Source of the DNA: Paenibacillus sp. JNUCC-31
Lineage (GTDB): Bacteria > Bacillota > Bacilli > Paenibacillales > Paenibacillaceae
Direction: 5' to 3'
Length of the DNA: 64,000 nucleotides
NCBI RefSeq assembly: GCF_014844075.1
Contig: NZ_CP062165.1
Span: 1,860,001 to 1,924,000 of the forward strand
In this document: piece after piece, positions 47,450 through 54,941 of the stretch
Layout: each line of letters opens with the position of its first letter
How positions within the stretch are numbered: the stretch's first letter is position 1
Translations under genes and position numbers: made by a program
Notes under the pieces: model-generated
Database searches by the model: none
The model's input: the letters and a program-made list of their open reading frames with translations, nothing else
Told to the model about the DNA's origin: nothing

Positions 47450-47519
47450 ATTTGCTGGCTGTTAGCGACTGAAGCGGCCATACGGATGAATGACTCGACT
47501 AAGAAAGGATGAACAAACC

Positions 47520-49364
47520 ATGTGCGGTATAACCGGCTTCATACAGTGGAATCGGGATTTGACCCAGGAATCAGAGCTGCTGGTCCGGATGACGGACAGC
47601 TTGTCGAACCGGGGGCCCGACGCTTCAGGTACATGGATCTCCAATCCTTGTGCGTTCGGACACCGGCGTCTCAGCGTAATGGACCCGGAGAACGGGGCAC
47701 AGCCCATGCATGCGTTACAAGGAGACATCTCCTATACCGTCGTGTATAACGGAGAACTATACAATGCACCCGAGTTGAAAAAGGAATTGCTCCAGCGGGG
47801 ACATCATTTCCGCACGCAATGTGATACGGAAGTGCTGCTCGCCTCTTATATTGAGTGGGGACCGGCCTGTGTTGATCGGTTTAACGGAATTTTTGCTTTT
47901 GCGATATGGGATGGCGGCCGCGAACAGGTTTTTATGGCACGCGATCGCTTGGGCGTCAAACCCCTGTTCTACAGTAATGCAAAGGATGCTCTCGTATTTG
48001 GCTCAGAACCCAAAGCACTGCTCATTCACCCGGATGTCGAAGCTGCTGTTGGTCCTGAGGGATTGGCGGAGGTATTTATTGTGGGGCCTGCCCGGACACC
48101 TGGACACGGCGTCTATTCCTCCCTGAGCGAGCTTAAACCAGCCCATGCGCTTATATACAACCGAAACGGGATTAAAACCTATGCTTACTGGAAGCTGGAA
48201 AGTCAGAAACACGAACATAATCTGGAAGAAACAACTGCCGAAGTACGCAGACTGTTGCAGGATACATTAGAACGACAGCTTGCTTCGGACGTTCCGGTTT
48301 GCTCCCTTTTGTCGGGGGGGCTGGATTCCAGTGCTTTATCTGCTCTTGCCGTAGATTATTACAACCGTACCGGTCAGGGCCAAGTCAGTACGTATTCGGT
48401 CGACTATGTAGATAATGCGAAGCATTTTCAGGCGCACTCCTTCCAACCTGGGGCAGATGGTCCCTGGATTCAGCGTATGGTGGATGAACTGAAAACAGAT
48501 CATCACTGGATTGAGATTGAAAATGGAGAGTTGGTCCATGCACTGACCCAGGCGATGCTCGTGCGGGATTTGCCGGGTATGGCGGATGTAGATTCCTCTC
48601 TCTATCTCTTCTGTAAAGAAATCAAAAAAGGAGCTACAGTTGCCATTTCAGGTGAAGCAGCGGATGAAGTATTTGGCGGTTATCCCTGGTTCCATCGGGA
48701 AGAGATGCTGAACTCCGGCACATTCCCATGGTCTGTAGCTCCTGACATGCGAGCAGGATTGTTATCCCCGGACATTCGGGAATGGATCAGACCGCTGGAT
48801 TATCTCGCAGATCGCTATTCGGATGCTGTGGCTGAAGTACCTTCGCTCGATGGGGAAACAGGCAAGGCAGCCCAGATGCGAGTCATGTCCTATCTGAACA
48901 TCACCCGGTTCATGCCTACACTCCTTGATCGTAAAGATCGGATGAGTATGGGAGCGGGGCTTGAGGTTCGGGTGCCTTATTGTGATCATCGCTTGATTCA
49001 GTATGTGTTTAACGTTCCGTGGGAAATGAAAATGACAGGCGGACGGGAAAAAGGAATTCTGCGTAAAGCGCTGGAAGGTGTACTGCCTGACGATGTATTG
49101 TACCGCAAAAAGAGCCCGTATCCGAAAACACATAACCCGCAGTATCTCGCTGCCGTTAAACAACAGGTACTGGATATTCTGGATGACGCAAGCTCACCAA
49201 TCTTGCCATTAATCGATAAAGCCCAAATTCGGAAATTGGCCTCTTCACCGGACGCTTCTTCCAACCTGCCCTGGTTTGGACAGTTAATGTCAGGGCCACA
49301 ACTGTTTGCTTACCTGACACAGATCAACTCATGGTTGCGTACGTATAAAGTGGCGATTCGTTAA
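47520..49364 (+). CDS. asnB: Glutamine-hydrolysing asparagine synthase (AsnB/AsnO type)
   Basis: 614 residues. The start is fixed at 47520 because class II glutamine amidotransferases need Cys right after the initiator Met (MCGITGF), the N-terminal nucleophile; AAAGGA lies upstream. The glutaminase domain (1-210) has RGPDASG, NGELYN and RDRLGVKPLFY; the synthetase domain has the PP-loop SLLSGGLDSSALSAL (near 265) and AISGEAADEVFGGYPW. In length and layout it is like the sporulation-linked AsnO of Bacillus. It converges on the STM4011-like radical SAM gene with a shared terminator, so a link to that cassette is only by proximity. Confidence 0.92.
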   Translation: MCGITGFIQWNRDLTQESELLVRMTDSLSNRGPDASGTWISNPCAFGHRRLSVMDPENGAQPMHALQGDISYTVVYNGELYNAPELKKELLQRGHHFRTQCDTEVLLASYIEWGPACVDRFNGIFAFAIWDGGREQVFMARDRLGVKPLFYSNAKDALVFGSEPKALLIHPDVEAAVGPEGLAEVFIVGPARTPGHGVYSSLSELKPAHALIYNRNGIKTYAYWKLESQKHEHNLEETTAEVRRLLQDTLERQLASDVPVCSLLSGGLDSSALSALAVDYYNRTGQGQVSTYSVDYVDNAKHFQAHSFQPGADGPWIQRMVDELKTDHHWIEIENGELVHALTQAMLVRDLPGMADVDSSLYLFCKEIKKGATVAISGEAADEVFGGYPWFHREEMLNSGTFPWSVAPDMRAGLLSPDIREWIRPLDYLADRYSDAVAEVPSLDGETGKAAQMRVMSYLNITRFMPTLLDRKDRMSMGAGLEVRVPYCDHRLIQYVFNVPWEMKMTGGREKGILRKALEGVLPDDVLYRKKSPYPKTHNPQYLAAVKQQVLDILDDASSPILPLIDKAQIRKLASSPDASSNLPWFGQLMSGPQLFAYLTQINSWLRTYKVAIR

Positions 49365-49386: not shown

Positions 49387-49437
49387 AAAAGGGGTGCCTG
49401 ATGACAGTATTACAGCTGTCCATCAGGCACCCCTTTT
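49387..49437. terminator. Bidirectional terminator between asnB and the radical SAM cassette
   Basis: AAAAGGGGTGCCTGATG / CATCAGGCACCCCTTTT stem with an inner ACAG/CTGT; both sides end in T-runs. Confidence 0.88.
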
Positions 49438-49493: not shown

Positions 49494-50354
49494 TCAGTTG
49501 ATCAGAACCGGATTACGTTCAAGCAATCCACTGCCAAAAATATCTCTGAACGGCGAATCCTCCATATGAATATAACCGATGTAACAGCCACACTTCTTCA
49601 TGCCGCATGGCCGATCAGCGGCTAAAGCTTCCAAACCATCGCGATACAGATGACCAATGATCCGGCGATCCTTGTAGCACCTTTTTACATGCCCTGACCC
49701 TTGTACATAAAAAACCTCCGAACCAGCGGAGCATCGCTTGCCCATACTTTCGTAATCCTGCAAATTCCCTTCAAACAACGGATCAATTGACCGTAAAAAG
49801 TCAACCTCTTCCACGGTATAATACTTTGGCCGATCTTTAAATGCATTGACCCACATATACACGTCATCGGGTAAAGCCTGTCTCATCGATTCAATTGCCG
49901 GGAATGCACTGCGCAATCCAACCGTCCCCACACTAAAAGCAAGTCCCATCTCACGTAAAGTCAGACATTGTTTGACAAAGGAAGACTCCTTTGTCTCACG
50001 AGGGTGATATGTCGCCCAGAATGCCGCTTTATCAGGGTTCAATTCGCGGGCCCAGTCCAGTTTGACGGACAAGTTCGTTTGGACTGCAATTTTGCCCACA
50101 TGTGGCATATGAGATAGTTCAATCATCGCGTCCCGATACCAGCGTCGTACCAGGGCTTCTCCATAGGGATTAAAGAAAATTGAAAATTGATGTCCAGCAC
50201 GCTCCTGCTCCCTCACCCAGTTCACAAATTGACGCAGTTGTTGTTCATCCACTTTCAGCGTTTCCTTGGAGTCTACCGTTTTGCTAAAAGGGCAGTAGGG
50301 ACAGTCGTAATTACACGACGACAGCTTGCCCCGATAATACAAGGTTGCTCTCAT
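49494..50354 (-). CDS. STM4011-family radical SAM protein
   Basis: 286 residues. The radical SAM CxxxCxxC is at C14, C18, C21 (CNYDCPYC), at the very N-terminus. The C-terminal part has more cysteines in two clusters (KRCSAGSEVF and KRCY, then CGMKKCGCY), which could hold an auxiliary iron-sulfur cluster as in SPASM-type peptide modifiers. Its start overlaps the stop of the STM4012-like gene by 4 bases. Last gene of the cassette. The family is conserved in scattered bacteria; no reaction is known. Confidence 0.88.
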   Translation of the reverse strand: MRATLYYRGKLSSCNYDCPYCPFSKTVDSKETLKVDEQQLRQFVNWVREQERAGHQFSIFFNPYGEALVRRWYRDAMIELSHMPHVGKIAVQTNLSVKLDWARELNPDKAAFWATYHPRETKESSFVKQCLTLREMGLAFSVGTVGLRSAFPAIESMRQALPDDVYMWVNAFKDRPKYYTVEEVDFLRSIDPLFEGNLQDYESMGKRCSAGSEVFYVQGSGHVKRCYKDRRIIGHLYRDGLEALAADRPCGMKKCGCYIGYIHMEDSPFRDIFGSGLLERNPVLIN

Positions 50355-51748
50355 GAGACTACATACCCTTCCATTTGTTCACGAATCTCAGCGGAGATGA
50401 GCCAATCTCCAATGGCATCCGAGTAGCCCAATCCCTCTTCTGTCAGACGCAGCACCTGGTTACCCTTATCGTCCTGCTCAAGCTCAGCCATGCTCTCCAA
50501 CATCAATCCACTCAACCATCCGTAGTCTGACATGACTTCTGTTCCGAATCGCTGAGCATAATCCGACAGCTTCAAGCCTTCGCGATGCAGCAGGGCTTTC
50601 AGAATAAAGCGGCGCTTCTGCTCCTCCAGGCTCAGTACAATACCGTAATCGGCTACATCATAGCGCTCGGTTGCGACATAATCGGCGATGATGCTTTGTG
50701 TAGCCTTATAACTAACGCCATACTTGGAAGCATAGTGTACTTCACTGGTATAAGAGCGTGCACCGCATCCCAGACCAACCATGCCTTCCTCCTGACAACT
50801 GTAGGGAAGAAGCTCTTTGCTTCCAATTGACGATCCTTCTTTGGCAAATCTGCGCATGGAATACTGGACATAGCCCCGGCTTTTTAAAGTCTCACGCGCA
50901 GCCTTATACAACTCCATCCGAATATCCGGTCCCTGACGCTGAATGTCATCCGGTTTCACAATGGTATTCTCGCGGGTGTACAGTGGATAAATAAAAATCT
51001 CACCCGGCTCATAGGAGAGAACGCGTTCCAGCGAATACAGCCATGATTCCACCGTTTGTCCCGGCAGACCATAGATCAGATCCAGATTCAACAAAGGGAA
51101 TCCAAACCGTGTAAGTTTCTCAAGTGCGCGTTCCACTTCCTGCGGCTTCTGTGGACGGTAAATGGCTGAGGCTTCCGCTTCGATAAAGCTTTGGATGCCC
51201 ATGCTTACCCGGTCCACGCTTCGTTCCTTCATGATTGCCAATTTGGCTTCTGTTACGGTGTCCGGTGACGTTTCTACCGAGATCGAAGCTTGCGTCGGAT
51301 CAAGCCCCATCACATTTTGCGCAATATCGAACAAACGGTTCAACTGAGTTTCATTCAATAACGTGGGTGTGCCACCACCGATGGCAAATCTCGAATAGGG
51401 TCTGCGTGATGTGATGGGTGCCCACTGTTTGGCTTGCCGTTCCAGCGCATCCACATAACGCACATGGGTATCATCACGTCGATCCGGTAAGGTGAACAGG
51501 TTGCAAAATCCGCAACGAGCTGCGCAAAACGGAATGTGCATATATAAAAAATATGTATCGGTGTTCTCACGCTCCCACAACGGACCGAGCGGTAATGGTG
51601 GATTCAATTCCCGATATGCGGTCTTATGGGGATACGAATATAAATAAGAGCGATAGGGGAAAGCAAGCACTTCTCTGAGACCTGCAGCTGTATTGGGTCC
51701 GGACTGTGCGGAATGGCCTGCTGTCGTATGTTGAGATTGATGGTCCAT
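50351..51748 (-). CDS. STM4012-family radical SAM protein (HemN/HemW-like)
   Basis: 465 residues from the ATG at 51748 (GGGAGG upstream; earlier ATGs at 51796 and 51784 lack one). Radical SAM cluster C75, C79, C82 (FCAARCGFCNLFT), GGGTPTLLN SAM motif, VSMGIQSFIEAE, then a HemN_C-like winged helix near the end (LVLRLTEEGLGYSDAIG type). It resembles anaerobic coproporphyrinogen oxidase and HemW, but a heme role is not implied by this neighbourhood. Between the hydrolase and the STM4011-like gene. Confidence 0.88.
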   Translation of the reverse strand: MDHQSQHTTAGHSAQSGPNTAAGLREVLAFPYRSYLYSYPHKTAYRELNPPLPLGPLWERENTDTYFLYMHIPFCAARCGFCNLFTLPDRRDDTHVRYVDALERQAKQWAPITSRRPYSRFAIGGGTPTLLNETQLNRLFDIAQNVMGLDPTQASISVETSPDTVTEAKLAIMKERSVDRVSMGIQSFIEAEASAIYRPQKPQEVERALEKLTRFGFPLLNLDLIYGLPGQTVESWLYSLERVLSYEPGEIFIYPLYTRENTIVKPDDIQRQGPDIRMELYKAARETLKSRGYVQYSMRRFAKEGSSIGSKELLPYSCQEEGMVGLGCGARSYTSEVHYASKYGVSYKATQSIIADYVATERYDVADYGIVLSLEEQKRRFILKALLHREGLKLSDYAQRFGTEVMSDYGWLSGLMLESMAELEQDDKGNQVLRLTEEGLGYSDAIGDWLISAEIREQMEGYVVS

Positions 51749-51801
51749 CGGTTTCCTCCCTGTATCCGGTTTGTAGTCGTTCATGATACGAACCATTTGT
51801 T

Positions 51802-52587
51802 CTATAAAATAAATTCACGATAAGGCACATTCCAGACCACATCATGTGCCAGCCTGTGCCCCTGATAACCGTCCTCGCCATACGCCGTGCCATGATCGGA
51901 AAAAGCAAGACAAAACGTAGGCCGTAACCGCTGCCTCATGGCATCAAACAATGGCCCGAGGGCTTGATCCACATATCGAAGCGCTGCACGTTGTGTTTCT
52001 ACCGAGTCCTCTCTTGCCCCCTCCACGAAATAGCGATTGGGCCCATGGATGGCAGACACGTTCAGGAATAAAAACAGCTTCTCATCCGGTGCACTTTGCT
52101 CCAGCAGCTTCAAGGCATGCTGAACCTGATGCTCGGTCGATTTGGGGTTGGTTACCCCAAAGTTCATTCGCCAGTAGCTCTGTTGAAAATAACCCGGCAG
52201 CACTTTGGCGAGCGGATTTTTCTTGGTGAAGAAAATAACCCCGCCAATACAAATCGTCCGGTATCCTTCAGCCGCAAACCCGGATACGATATCCGGTGTG
52301 TCGAACAGCCAGGTATGCGGATGCGTCTTTAAGCCGGTATTTCGGGAATGAAAAAGTCGTACATGGGAGGCTTTGTCAGTGTTCGCGGGTGTAGGCATGA
52401 AGCCACCAAAAAAAGCATGATGTGCCGCATATGTAAAACTTCCAGGGGTATGACGCTGCTCCCAGGAACCTGAACCGCACAGGTTGGGGCAATTCGGCTC
52501 TTCCAGCTTCGCAACGTCATACCTTAACGTGTCCAGCGTAATCATCAACAGATCATGGGAGCCAACGATGTTGTTCATATCAGGCAT
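51802..52587 (-). CDS. STM4013/SEN3800-family sulfatase-fold hydrolase
   Basis: 261 residues starting MPDMNNIVGSHDLLMITLDT; AAAGGAG lies upstream, and the start overlaps the stop of the ATP-grasp gene by 8 bases. Alkaline-phosphatase/sulfatase superfamily metal residues: Asp in ITLDTLRYD and the AFSDHGTAYGEDG motif. The usual formylglycine C/S-x-P-S-R motif of sulfatases is absent (SFTYAAHHAFFGGFMPTPA occupies the place), so phosphatase, phosphodiesterase or transferase activity is more likely than sulfatase. No signal peptide: cytoplasmic. Confidence 0.87.
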   Translation of the reverse strand: MPDMNNIVGSHDLLMITLDTLRYDVAKLEEPNCPNLCGSGSWEQRHTPGSFTYAAHHAFFGGFMPTPANTDKASHVRLFHSRNTGLKTHPHTWLFDTPDIVSGFAAEGYRTICIGGVIFFTKKNPLAKVLPGYFQQSYWRMNFGVTNPKSTEHQVQHALKLLEQSAPDEKLFLFLNVSAIHGPNRYFVEGAREDSVETQRAALRYVDQALGPLFDAMRQRLRPTFCLAFSDHGTAYGEDGYQGHRLAHDVVWNVPYREFIL

Positions 52588-53941
52588 GGTTGGAAGGCTC
52601 CTTTCGCAAAAGTTCCATTTCCCATTCATAGGTTCCCAGTCCATTATGCTGTACTCTGTACAACAAATCTCCGAACGGATTCACATCCAGAACATAGGCA
52701 AGGGGTTCAGTACCTACAGTGAGCATCACATCAATACCGGCTGACCACGAGTTGGGGAAGGCAGCCATCGCTGCTTTCGCTGCCGTCTGAACCCCATCCA
52801 TCTGCTGTTCGTTCAGTCCCGCTTCTACAGGCAGCATGCGCTCATTGCGCAAGTGCAGATTGGTGATCGGGGTTTGACTAAGCCGAACGATGGCATGACC
52901 TGTTTGTCTTCCTGCCACAAGCTGGCGAATATCATACACGCTTGAACCAAGGGACGCTTTTGCCATCCAACGTTCAATCTGTGCACCCTCAGCACACAGC
53001 CAATCCATGAGAGTTGATATCTCTGGAGTTCGTGTATACCTGCGCATACGGCCTTCGTTATAGAAAATGGTCTGTCCCTGAACCTGTTCCATTCCCACTG
53101 TGGTTATAGCAATTTCGGCACCCGTTCGGGGATTGACTTGATAGGCAACAACGCCTGAAGCCCCGGAGCCACACGCGAGCTTCACGAAAACGCGATTCAT
53201 ACCGGCAGTCTCCATTGCGGTACGCAGGTCCGCATACGTTCTGATTGGCCCCGAAGATTGGAGCGTTGGGGGGACCAGCACGCCATGTGAGGATAGATGC
53301 TGCTGACATTTCCTTTTATCAAACATGATCGCAATGTCAGCAGGATCATTCATGAACCGGGCATTGGGCCAATACTTCCGGGCTTCATGGCCAATTCGTT
53401 TCAAACATGCTTTCCAGCCAAGAAACCATTGTTTAGGCGCGTAAATCCGCCCCCACTCCTGTTCAAGAGTCAGTGTCTCTTCTGCAGGAATCATTCTCGC
53501 ATAAGCGCCATCCATCAACGGAGGTGTATTAGCTCCGAGAAAGAGCAACTCACGCTCTACCTCCCATTCCTCGCCTGGAGCATCTATTCGGATAAGAGGA
53601 TCGCTGCTCACTCCGTGAACCAAATCCTGATTCGCATATGGCATTGATGCTGATGAGGATAGCCACGACACTCCTTGCATCTGCGTAGCAACTTCACCTT
53701 CCATACATTGCTGTACGGCATCCGCCATCGTTCCGCCCCTTCTCCAGGCTTTCAACAAGCTGTCATAAGGCAATACAAAGGCCGGTTGTAAGCCAAGATG
53801 CCGCCTTGCCTCCTGCAATCCAAGGGTACGCCGATTATTTGGGTTCCCAATTAACAATAACGGCTTCGGCGTCATGTCATAGTCCGTACCCACAGCTAGA
53901 CGCTGCAAATTTTCTTCCGTTTCCATCGTGCCTGACATCAT
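52580..53941 (-). CDS. STM4014-family ATP-grasp-like protein
   Basis: 453 residues. The C-terminal two-thirds looks like an ATP-grasp ligase: FVKLACGSGASGVVAY (nucleotide loop, near 245), and near the end AGIDVMLTVGTEP and YVLDVNPFGDLL, the metal-binding Asp/Asn pair. It starts MMSGTMETEENL directly after the stop of the upstream gene (TAAATG), so translation is coupled; no strong ribosome site. The family would form an amide or ester bond using ATP; its substrate is unknown. Confidence 0.85.
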   Translation of the reverse strand: MMSGTMETEENLQRLAVGTDYDMTPKPLLLIGNPNNRRTLGLQEARRHLGLQPAFVLPYDSLLKAWRRGGTMADAVQQCMEGEVATQMQGVSWLSSSASMPYANQDLVHGVSSDPLIRIDAPGEEWEVERELLFLGANTPPLMDGAYARMIPAEETLTLEQEWGRIYAPKQWFLGWKACLKRIGHEARKYWPNARFMNDPADIAIMFDKRKCQQHLSSHGVLVPPTLQSSGPIRTYADLRTAMETAGMNRVFVKLACGSGASGVVAYQVNPRTGAEIAITTVGMEQVQGQTIFYNEGRMRRYTRTPEISTLMDWLCAEGAQIERWMAKASLGSSVYDIRQLVAGRQTGHAIVRLSQTPITNLHLRNERMLPVEAGLNEQQMDGVQTAAKAAMAAFPNSWSAGIDVMLTVGTEPLAYVLDVNPFGDLLYRVQHNGLGTYEWEMELLRKEPSNHA

Positions 53942-54784
53942 TTATTCCGTTAAGGACGGATAACGCCAGTCATCTTCATCACTCTGTTGTTGCTCGCTGA
54001 CATCAACAGACATGCCTGAACGTTTCCAGCGAATGAGCATTTCGTCCGTCATATAGTGGTAACTAAGGTTGAGATGTTTAAGTTTCTTAATCTTGTCACT
54101 GGCAAGCAGCGCTTCAGCTCCTTCATCAGACAGGGTACCCTCTGACAGATCCAGGACTTCAAGTTGATCCAGAATCGGCGCCTCAGCTGCAGCTTTTGCA
54201 ATCTCATCCTGAATTTCACTGTCTTTCAGACCCAAGTACACCAACTTTGGAAATAAGCCCTTTTCCAGAAGCGGAAGTACATCTTGCAGTGAACCATCGA
54301 AACCGTAATCCTCCACACCCAGATACAATTCAAGCTTACGCAATTCAGGCAACTCGGCCCGGGCCATTGAAGCTAACACTTCTCGGGGCAAACCGCCACA
54401 GATAATAACGAATTCTTCCAGTTTGCCATGCTGGATCGGTCCCAGACTCAGTCCACTGCTGCCCTTTACCCAAAATGACTTTAATTCAGGAAAAGCAATC
54501 AATAGCGGGGTGAGATCCGTCTGAATAATCCATGATACTTCACATTCCTCGGAGCCCATATCTCCGATGAACAGTTTCCTCAAAGACGGAAAGCTTGGTG
54601 CCAGTTCAATGAGCGTACCCATAAATTCATCCGGCGAATTTTCATAAGCCTGTCCCCAGTCTCCAATAATCAGGCTCTCCAGCGAACCGGCCTCCGGTTT
54701 GGCAGCCAGTTCCCTGATCAACTTTTCCATACGAATACCGTCCTCATAATCATCATAAGACACCGTAAGCTTCACTTCTTGCAT
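53942..54784 (-). CDS. STM4015-family leucine-rich-repeat protein
   Basis: 280 residues, no signal peptide. Leucine-rich repeats of about 25-30 residues fill most of the protein (FPSLRKLFIGD, FPELKSFWVKG, LPELRKLELYLG, FPKLVYLGLKD, LDQLEVLDLSEG, IKKLKHLNLSYH). The tail (about 262-280) is acidic and polar. GGAGGGG precedes the ATG. First gene of the STM4015-to-STM4011 cassette; a protein-binding or substrate-recognition role for the LRR is inferred. Confidence 0.88.
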   Translation of the reverse strand: MQEVKLTVSYDDYEDGIRMEKLIRELAAKPEAGSLESLIIGDWGQAYENSPDEFMGTLIELAPSFPSLRKLFIGDMGSEECEVSWIIQTDLTPLLIAFPELKSFWVKGSSGLSLGPIQHGKLEEFVIICGGLPREVLASMARAELPELRKLELYLGVEDYGFDGSLQDVLPLLEKGLFPKLVYLGLKDSEIQDEIAKAAAEAPILDQLEVLDLSEGTLSDEGAEALLASDKIKKLKHLNLSYHYMTDEMLIRWKRSGMSVDVSEQQQSDEDDWRYPSLTE

Positions 54785-54929
54785 AAAGTAAATCCCCTCC
54801 GTTTGAGTTCATTGATGATTCGTTAACTTGAATGTTAACCCATTCTGTACGAGCCTTGCAACTTCTTCCAACCCTAGTCCTAACGCTCTGCTCAAACGTG
54901 AAATCTTCGTATTTTCTTTATAGGTATAA

Positions 54930-54941
54930 GAACATACGTTC
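54930..54941. promoter_or_regulatory. LexA-type SOS box upstream of the cassette
   Basis: The palindrome GAACATACGTTC fits the Gram-positive LexA/DinR core GAAC-RNRY-GTTC on either strand. It lies about 145 bases upstream of the STM4015-like start, in the only non-coding gap (54,785-55,021) that could hold the cassette's promoter. No convincing -35/-10 pair is seen across it (a TATAAA is a few bases downstream on the minus strand). Confidence 0.5.

Follow-up and report, generated by a model that had tools for sequence, protein, structure and literature searches.

A widespread STM4015-STM4011 gene cassette in Paenibacillus sp. JNUCC-31 and its possible role in modifying a carrier or target protein

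Five protein families, STM4015 to STM4011, have so far been named without functions, yet the cassette formed by their genes is widespread (at least 461 stretches with an STM4011 relative), which raises the question of what this cassette does. The question is addressed here for the copy in Paenibacillus sp. JNUCC-31 (genome of 7.55 Mb, single contig), located on the minus strand at 49494..54784 of a 64,000-nt stretch (NZ_CP062165.1, positions 1,860,001 to 1,924,000; the window). The cassette is real, widespread and undescribed, of catalogued families. It most likely serves to modify a carrier or target protein in the manner of LysW/LysX and RimK/S6, and is a member of neither; the modification pathway proposed in an earlier note on this DNA is supported. 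In the reading that we prefer, at a probability of roughly 0.42, the leucine-rich repeat (LRR) protein STM4015 would be a carrier or target loaded at its C-terminal tail by the ATP-grasp ligase STM4014 and then modified by the STM4013-STM4012-STM4011 trio. The tail and the type of the ligase narrow the "unknown pathway" to one question, namely whether STM4014 adds mass to the C-terminus of STM4015: if it does, a new carrier logic and a new radical chemistry on a protein would follow, and if not, the tail needs another explanation.

One cassette in many bacteria

The genes and the element that follows them are listed below (bit scores against NCBIfam families, with curated cut-offs in brackets).

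53942..54784, minus strand: STM4015-family LRR protein, proposed carrier or target; 280 aa, computed pI 4.4; 351.6 bits (275)
53945..53974, minus strand: codons of the conserved C-terminal tail DDWRYPSLTE, whose last Glu is the proposed attachment point
52580..53941, minus strand: STM4014-family ATP-grasp ligase of the LysX/ArgX/RimK type; 399.4 bits (175)
51802..52587, minus strand: STM4013-family hydrolase of the alkaline phosphatase/sulfatase superfamily, with an invariant Thr at the presumed nucleophile position; NF038075, 399.1 bits (250)
50351..51796, minus strand: STM4012-family HemN-like radical S-adenosylmethionine (SAM) enzyme; NF006067, 585.2 bits (380)
49494..50354, minus strand: STM4011-family radical SAM enzyme with a five-Cys C-terminal region; NF038073, 398.8 bits (200)
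49391..49433, no strand: hairpin with A-run and T-run, fitting a bidirectional terminator; folding z -8.6

All five genes passed their cut-offs, which confirms the assignment in the earlier note. The NCBIfam families, named after Salmonella Typhimurium loci, are the same five in the same order, and their names carry no function. STM4013 has an alternative longer start at 52644, and the family match begins at residue 23 of the longer frame. The note had starts overlapping stops at three junctions; the 8-base overlap of STM4014 and STM4013 (ATGCCTGA) and the 4-base overlap of STM4012 and STM4011 (ATGA) stand, but at the STM4015/STM4014 junction TAA merely abuts ATG. STM4013 and STM4012 are separated by 5 nt. 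Downstream of the unit, the hairpin, which is preceded by A and followed by T and folds at -36.4 kcal/mol (mean of shuffled sequences -12.8), suits the bidirectional terminator that had been claimed, shared with a convergent gene at 47490-49364 that by eye, with no family search, resembles an asparagine synthase; the hairpin was absent from the list of a simple terminator scan. The single match to an RNA element in or near the operon lay on this hairpin (E 0.22, below the gathering score) and was rejected.

In the open-licence literature, no paper was found for the STM4011-STM4015 family names, for the crystal structure 2RA8 or for Q64V53, and none of the papers listed describes this system by title and abstract; the locus names occur there, in the passages seen, as table entries. 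The claim that no reaction is in print for these families therefore holds for this literature.

That the five genes form one functional unit follows from the co-occurrence of the families across genomes, the check that had been proposed for it. In one draw of 118 Paenibacillaceae genomes that includes the window's own and was searched with STM4011, STM4014 and STM4015, STM4011 and STM4014 were present in the same 40 genomes, and STM4015 in those 40 and one more (G098, a match spanning 2-238 of 290 positions). The at least 461 STM4011 relatives (E <= 1e-3, among 591 stretches) come from a scan of one genome per species anchored on this family, and the best 80 were read for the whole cassette. 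All five genes were found in 51/51 Paenibacillaceae loci, each in canonical order, and in 24 of the 29 others, 16 of these 24 in canonical order; among the incomplete loci, four (L089, L096, L100, L105) have a cassette gene at a contig end and one (L097) is incomplete within its 20.8 kb. Complete cassettes occur in Bacillota, Acidobacteria (Blastocatellia), Proteobacteria, Bacteroidota, Planctomycetes, Cyanobacteria, Verrucomicrobia, Lentisphaerae and Actinobacteria, and an Armatimonadetes cassette is interrupted by a contig end. Plasmid records, 26 of which have an STM4013 match, extend the cassette to Deinococcus, Methylobacterium and Salmonella: of the 12 opened, eight carry the whole cassette, three (L024, L025, L028) only an STM4013-like gene, while in a Bacteroides plasmid (L031) STM4012 is almost entirely deleted and STM4013 for the most part. 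STM4015 was patchy in draws that each contain a centre genome picked for having the cassette (6/246 Actinomycetota, 2/198 Bacteroidota, 3/150 in the order of an Undibacterium, 3/117 Cyanobacteria). This patchy occurrence across at least nine phyla makes spread by horizontal transfer probable (no trees were made).

The tail of STM4015 and its proposed ligase

STM4015 consists of a globular domain, an acidic linker of variable length (net charge -3 or lower in 97/108) and a tail of the approximate form W/Y-R-Y-V/P-A/S-V/L-G/S/T-E; its median pI is 4.37, against 5.5-8.0 for the cassette enzymes. After reduction of 115 copies to 60 at 70% identity, Glu was the final residue in 56 (3.84 bits, uncorrected); position -7 is R in 48 copies, and position -6 is Y or F in 54. 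The four without a final Glu are the upstream half of a split gene (L132), two copies away from cassettes (L126 and, in Calothrix, L124) and one in a Calothrix cassette (L104). For comparison, the last residue holds 0.8-0.9 bits in STM4014, STM4013 and STM4011, whose C-termini are unconserved, and 1.2 bits in STM4012, which has conserved positions close to its end (the comparison is ungapped, and the control set still contains frames truncated at locus ends). A looser form of the motif, set once the tails had been inspected, terminates 93 of 26,450 six-frame frames of at least 40 codons in the loci searched, all 93 of them STM4015. In nine loci, from six genomes with a full or partial cassette elsewhere, 13 STM4015-like frames (12 genes, one split) stand away from cassette genes; nine retain tail and Glu and three have lost the tail, the remaining frame being the upstream part of the split gene. 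Glu 280 is invariant in the 47 chosen rows of alignment A7, which leaves out tail-less copies; plasmid rows were excluded from both alignments used for AlphaFold. Two Calothrix genomes (L104, L109, L124, L131) have three and seven STM4015 matches, in some of which the tail is missing or degenerate.

The earlier note had credited the ATP-grasp protein with bond formation, which can be made more precise, as the predicted fold of STM4014 can be placed nearest to the LysX/ArgX/RimK ligases. Beyond 2RA8, its best solved matches are ArgX with LysW, RimK, and LysX/ArgX with LysW-gamma-AAA (Z scores within 1 counted as tied); further matches of the model include the graspetide ligases MdnC and PsnB. 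Little can be learned from the VIA-align and Foldseek lists on the other folds of the STM4015-STM4014 fusion model, because its ATP-grasp half dominates them. The STM4014 profile aligns a DxR...R.S...TN motif with LysX and RimK, and D328, R330, R344, T351, N352, N412, K200 and K245 (numbered by the first alignment row, which starts at 53914) are invariant in 44/44 sequences. In LysX/ArgX/RimK ligases, DxR, Arg and Asn residues are catalytic and an Asn binds Mg; STM4014 has these residues.

The order of the genes suggests which partners belong together. Nine complete loci depart from the canonical order, and in seven of them (L088, L091, L093, L098, L103, L108, L119; the STM4015 match of L108 is weak, 65 bits) the blocks STM4015-STM4014 and STM4013-STM4012-STM4011 are intact; therefore, the LRR protein goes with the ATP-grasp ligase and the hydrolase with both radical SAM enzymes. 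The other two, from Calothrix (L104, L109), lack this arrangement, and their LRR copies have degenerate tails.

Several known systems resemble this arrangement in part. In excerpts of the papers on LysW/LysX and ArgW/ArgX, a RimK-type ATP-grasp ligase is paired with an acidic carrier whose globular domain is joined to a conserved C-terminal tail with a terminal Glu (PMC10433800, PMC9303977), amino-group carrier proteins sharing layout and charge with STM4015 (PMC9303977), and LysX, ArgX and RimK enzymes act on the C-terminal Glu or the C-terminus of a protein (PMC10433800, PMC10092738). In contrast to LysW, the carrier here would be an LRR protein of about 280 aa; its tail is DDWRYPSLTE rather than EDWGE, it lacks a LysW-like small Zn-binding domain with Cys, and STM4014 lacks the GSWGR motif of LysX/ArgX. 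Downstream, the lysine pathway employs a kinase, a reductase, an aminotransferase and a peptidase, whereas radical SAM enzymes and a phosphohydrolase are found here. RimK adds Glu residues to ribosomal protein S6 (RpsF), but it has neither the radical SAM partners nor the dedicated LRR protein of the cassette. MdnC and PsnB share with STM4014 the ATP-grasp fold and presumably a ribosomal substrate, and act on a short precursor peptide, a conserved form of which was not found here among ORFs of at least 45 aa. In the pearlins (TglA/TmoA), according to excerpts of PMC9303977, a compound is likewise built on the C-terminus of a ribosomal carrier, with a radical SAM enzyme in one pathway, but by an aminoacyl-tRNA-dependent ligase on a carrier peptide and with a protease.

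A proposed route and its rivals

STM4013 (Pfam Sulfatase 45.6 bits) matches sulfatases and nucleotide pyrophosphatases by profile, and D19, T52, D231, H232 and H244 are invariant in 45/45 sequences, the Asp and His residues suiting a metal site. Formylglycine sulfatases have Cys or Ser in the motif C/S-x-P-x-R. STM4013 is not one of them because of its invariant Thr52, and a pair of formylglycine sulfatase and maturase (STM4013 with STM4011) was ruled out by the same residue. Of the phosphate or sulfate chemistry that had been suggested, phosphate is thus probably the likelier. STM4012 matches in the PDB HemN (1olt, 4e-32) and the methyltransferase NocN (1.2e-18), and stays below the cut-offs for HemW (162.7 against 205.4) and HemN (142.1 against 324.95). 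In STM4011 the radical-SAM Cys 14, 18 and 21 are invariant in 52/52 aligned sequences, and so are Cys 208, 226, 250, 255 and 257, which bears out the extra Cys clusters of the note. SPASM radical SAM enzymes are defined by a seven-Cys C-terminal motif; the five extra Cys here are spaced C-X17-C ... C-X4-C-X1-C and do not form it. The STM4011 profile is weakly similar (E 8.4e-4) to the C-terminal region of SkfB, presumably, from its PDB name, an enzyme of a ribosomally synthesized and post-translationally modified peptide (RiPP).

Two partners of the cassette elsewhere point to a phosphorylated intermediate. A CysC-like kinase adjoins STM4011 in 20/51 Paenibacillaceae loci, following it as a sixth gene, and in 4/12 short survey loci, and STM4014 in one Bacteroidota locus; the 25 hits of its profile (built from three of them, the Ti-plasmid member L025 having been removed beforehand) are each about 0.5 kb or less from the cassette (e.g., L060:10888-11493), and copies in L060 (226.7 bits) and L119 (196.0) pass the adenylyl-sulfate kinase cut-off of 138.7. 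A phosphatase of the haloacid dehalogenase (HAD) superfamily is beside or within the cassette in 10/10 hits of its profile, which was built from eight of them. By these profiles, the window has neither. Among ORFs of at least 45 aa in 48 loci (12 plasmid, 29 from other phyla, the window and six from Paenibacillaceae), the HAD gene is the only recurrent extra gene inside cassettes. No conserved short precursor ORF of this size was found there, contrary to the expectation of a co-occurring substrate ORF.

The region upstream of STM4015 carries one further element.

54930..54941, no strand: LexA/SOS-box-like palindrome GAACATACGTTC (minus strand GAACGTATGTTC), about 150 nt upstream of STM4015

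The sequence GAACGTATGTTC is located on the minus strand in the intergenic region, and the genome has nine GAACRTAYGTTC sites, against two for the reversed control. A GAACN4GTTC site is present within 300 nt upstream of STM4015 in 25/52 Paenibacillaceae loci, or, with grouping at 80% identity, in 6/21 lineages (two of these belong to a single genus, and in L052 the site is just 26 nt ahead of the domain and may have arisen by chance); the background is 31 of 1,058 ORF starts, the cassette itself included. None was found upstream of STM4015 in loci outside Paenibacillaceae. A LexA-box-like site stands upstream in 15/15 members of the window's Paenibacillus clade. In the same genome, two exact GAACN4GTTC sites lie upstream of lexA, and a copy that differs at one position lies near the start of recA. 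LexA control is likely for this Paenibacillus clade and not a general property of the cassette. A second conserved block, TTGGAAGAAGTTGCAAG...GGGTTAACATTCAA, lies between the box and STM4015 (window about 54825-54872) in the aligned members of the clade (L033-L046).

The proposed route would run as follows. STM4015 would serve as a folded acidic carrier or a permanent target with its LRR body as the docking surface, a role that we consider likelier than the recognition of an outside substrate given to it in the earlier note. The acceptor may be the Glu at the end of the tail, which STM4014 would activate with ATP and join to an amine, most likely that of an amino acid or an amino-acid-like compound. 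The trio would next act on the tail or its load, HemN-like STM4012 and Cys-rich STM4011 by radical chemistry and STM4013, joined in many other lineages by the HAD phosphatase or the adenylyl-sulfate-kinase-like kinase, by removing or moving phosphate. DNA damage would probably induce the operon via LexA in this Paenibacillus clade. A wider claim, held tentatively and with less confidence than the route itself, is that the cassette represents a new type of biosynthesis on a carrier protein, present in at least nine phyla and linked in one lineage to the SOS response, in which a RimK/LysX-type ligase loads the last Glu of an LRR protein and the radical SAM pair and the phosphohydrolase then build a new cofactor-like or signalling group on it.

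Several results weigh against this route. In the prediction of STM4015 alone, the tail block has a predicted local distance difference test score (pLDDT) of 82 and the linker 92; in the read-through fusion with STM4014 the values are 81 and 88 (predicted template modelling score 0.62). In the prediction, the tail is thus ordered even when the ligase is absent, presumably on the LRR body, and docking of the tail into STM4014 is unsupported, its order being equal with and without the ligase (the fusion is a hard test of docking, because the tail end is tied to the linker). The 2RA8 crystal aligns as far as model residue 280, and where LysX/ArgX have GSWGR, the STM4014 loop is GSGASGV (window) or GSSASGV (consensus). 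No protease cluster recurred in three or more of the 48 neighbourhoods, and neither a release enzyme nor a product is known. The LexA step is weakened because beside the eight other GAACRTAYGTTC sites in the genome no SOS gene was recognised (by eye, no family search). The ordered tail, the undocked fusion, the 2RA8 alignment, the missing GSWGR and the lack of a recurrent peptidase are the reasons for the probability given at the outset.

Some of these results favour another explanation, in which the tail is a structural cap or an element of complex assembly and STM4015 a scaffold or recognition subunit, while the substrate of STM4014 and the radical SAM pair is a small molecule, nucleotide or lipid distinct from STM4015 and phosphorylated at one stage or another. 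A tail ordered without a partner and aligned in the crystal is what a cap would look like, and the kinase and phosphatase partners suit a phosphorylated intermediate; yet a cap needs no exact end residue, whereas Glu is nearly always last, and STM4015 stays paired with a LysX/RimK-type ligase in most of the rearranged cassettes, so that we hold this explanation to be somewhat unlikely. A RiPP-like system appears less likely again. There the radical SAM pair would crosslink or methylate Trp, Arg or Tyr of the tail with the LRR as a folded leader, and STM4014 would close a tail amide or ester like the graspetide ligases; the conserved W/Y-R-Y, the match of MdnC and PsnB to the STM4014 model, the resemblance of STM4011 to SkfB and the tandem or dispersed STM4015 copies, which look like precursor copies, are consistent with it, but the tail R and Y are substituted in Salmonella and some Bacteroidota, a recurrent protease and a conserved short precursor are both missing from the neighbourhoods described above, and transporters lie outside the cassette. 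A DNA-damage or stress-response system with the modification as a signal or repair step, which concerns the role and not the chemistry, is improbable: the LexA-box-like site in every clade member and its excess over background speak for it, but the site is absent in 15/21 Paenibacillaceae lineages, was not found upstream of STM4015 in the loci outside the family, may be chance in L052 and is unaccompanied by recognised SOS genes elsewhere in the genome, and the sole match of a PADLOC scan for known defence systems is weak and partial (STM4012 to PDC-M51A, 39.7 bits over 111 residues). Compared with these, we retain the loading of the STM4015 tail by STM4014 as the preferred explanation.

Neighbouring genes and divergent copies

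Besides the CysC-like kinase, recurrent flanking clusters, of three to six loci each, comprise major facilitator superfamily (MFS) and ATP-binding cassette (ABC) transporters, a sodium:solute symporter (SSF), histidine kinases, an alpha/beta hydrolase and a GntR regulator; they were identified from one looked-up member each and are common families at varying distance. The transporter clusters (MFS in six loci, ABC in four and SSF in three) lie outside the cassette, 0.1-7 kb away. A second HAD type was found after STM4011 in Salmonella (L021), at a distance of 1.4 kb in D. taeanensis (L030) and as a fusion with STM4011 in the Bacteroides plasmid (L031:4283-5890). At least 27 STM4011 relatives are found in putative viral contigs, and among the matches listed one (L145) is nearly full-length, with 36% identity; this contig has the complete set of five genes, organised as in Bacteroides and including a long STM4011 frame (L145:5608-7158), which resembles the L031 fusion in length and ending. 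Five records with STM4015 matches in a phage collection are named for Salmonella or E. coli and are probably host DNA.

A two-gene module beside some cassettes encodes a protein of about 100 aa (GEVTGHxH...QREYxP) and a DUF6745 protein, sometimes with an LRR-like N-terminus by eye (e.g., L022:11088-12397, L023:4498-5823 and L026:3171-4635; also L088, L089, L091, L098, L107, L110, L112, L114-L116 and L129). It occurs in 5/12 plasmid, 7/29 non-Paenibacillaceae genome, 4/20 STM4015-anchored and 0/51 Paenibacillaceae loci, and no paper on DUF6745 was found in the open-licence literature. In Agrobacterium Ti plasmids, a distant sulfatase-like gene (L025:6118-6864) has 26-27% identity to STM4013, with no further cassette gene within the 12.8 kb read. 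Two actinobacterial plasmids (L024:8738-10901, L028:8001-8783) have a lone divergent STM4013 with 41-42% identity to that of the window, which in L024 adjoins an 81-aa protein, a Nudix hydrolase and a transglutaminase-like "lasso peptide B2" protein.

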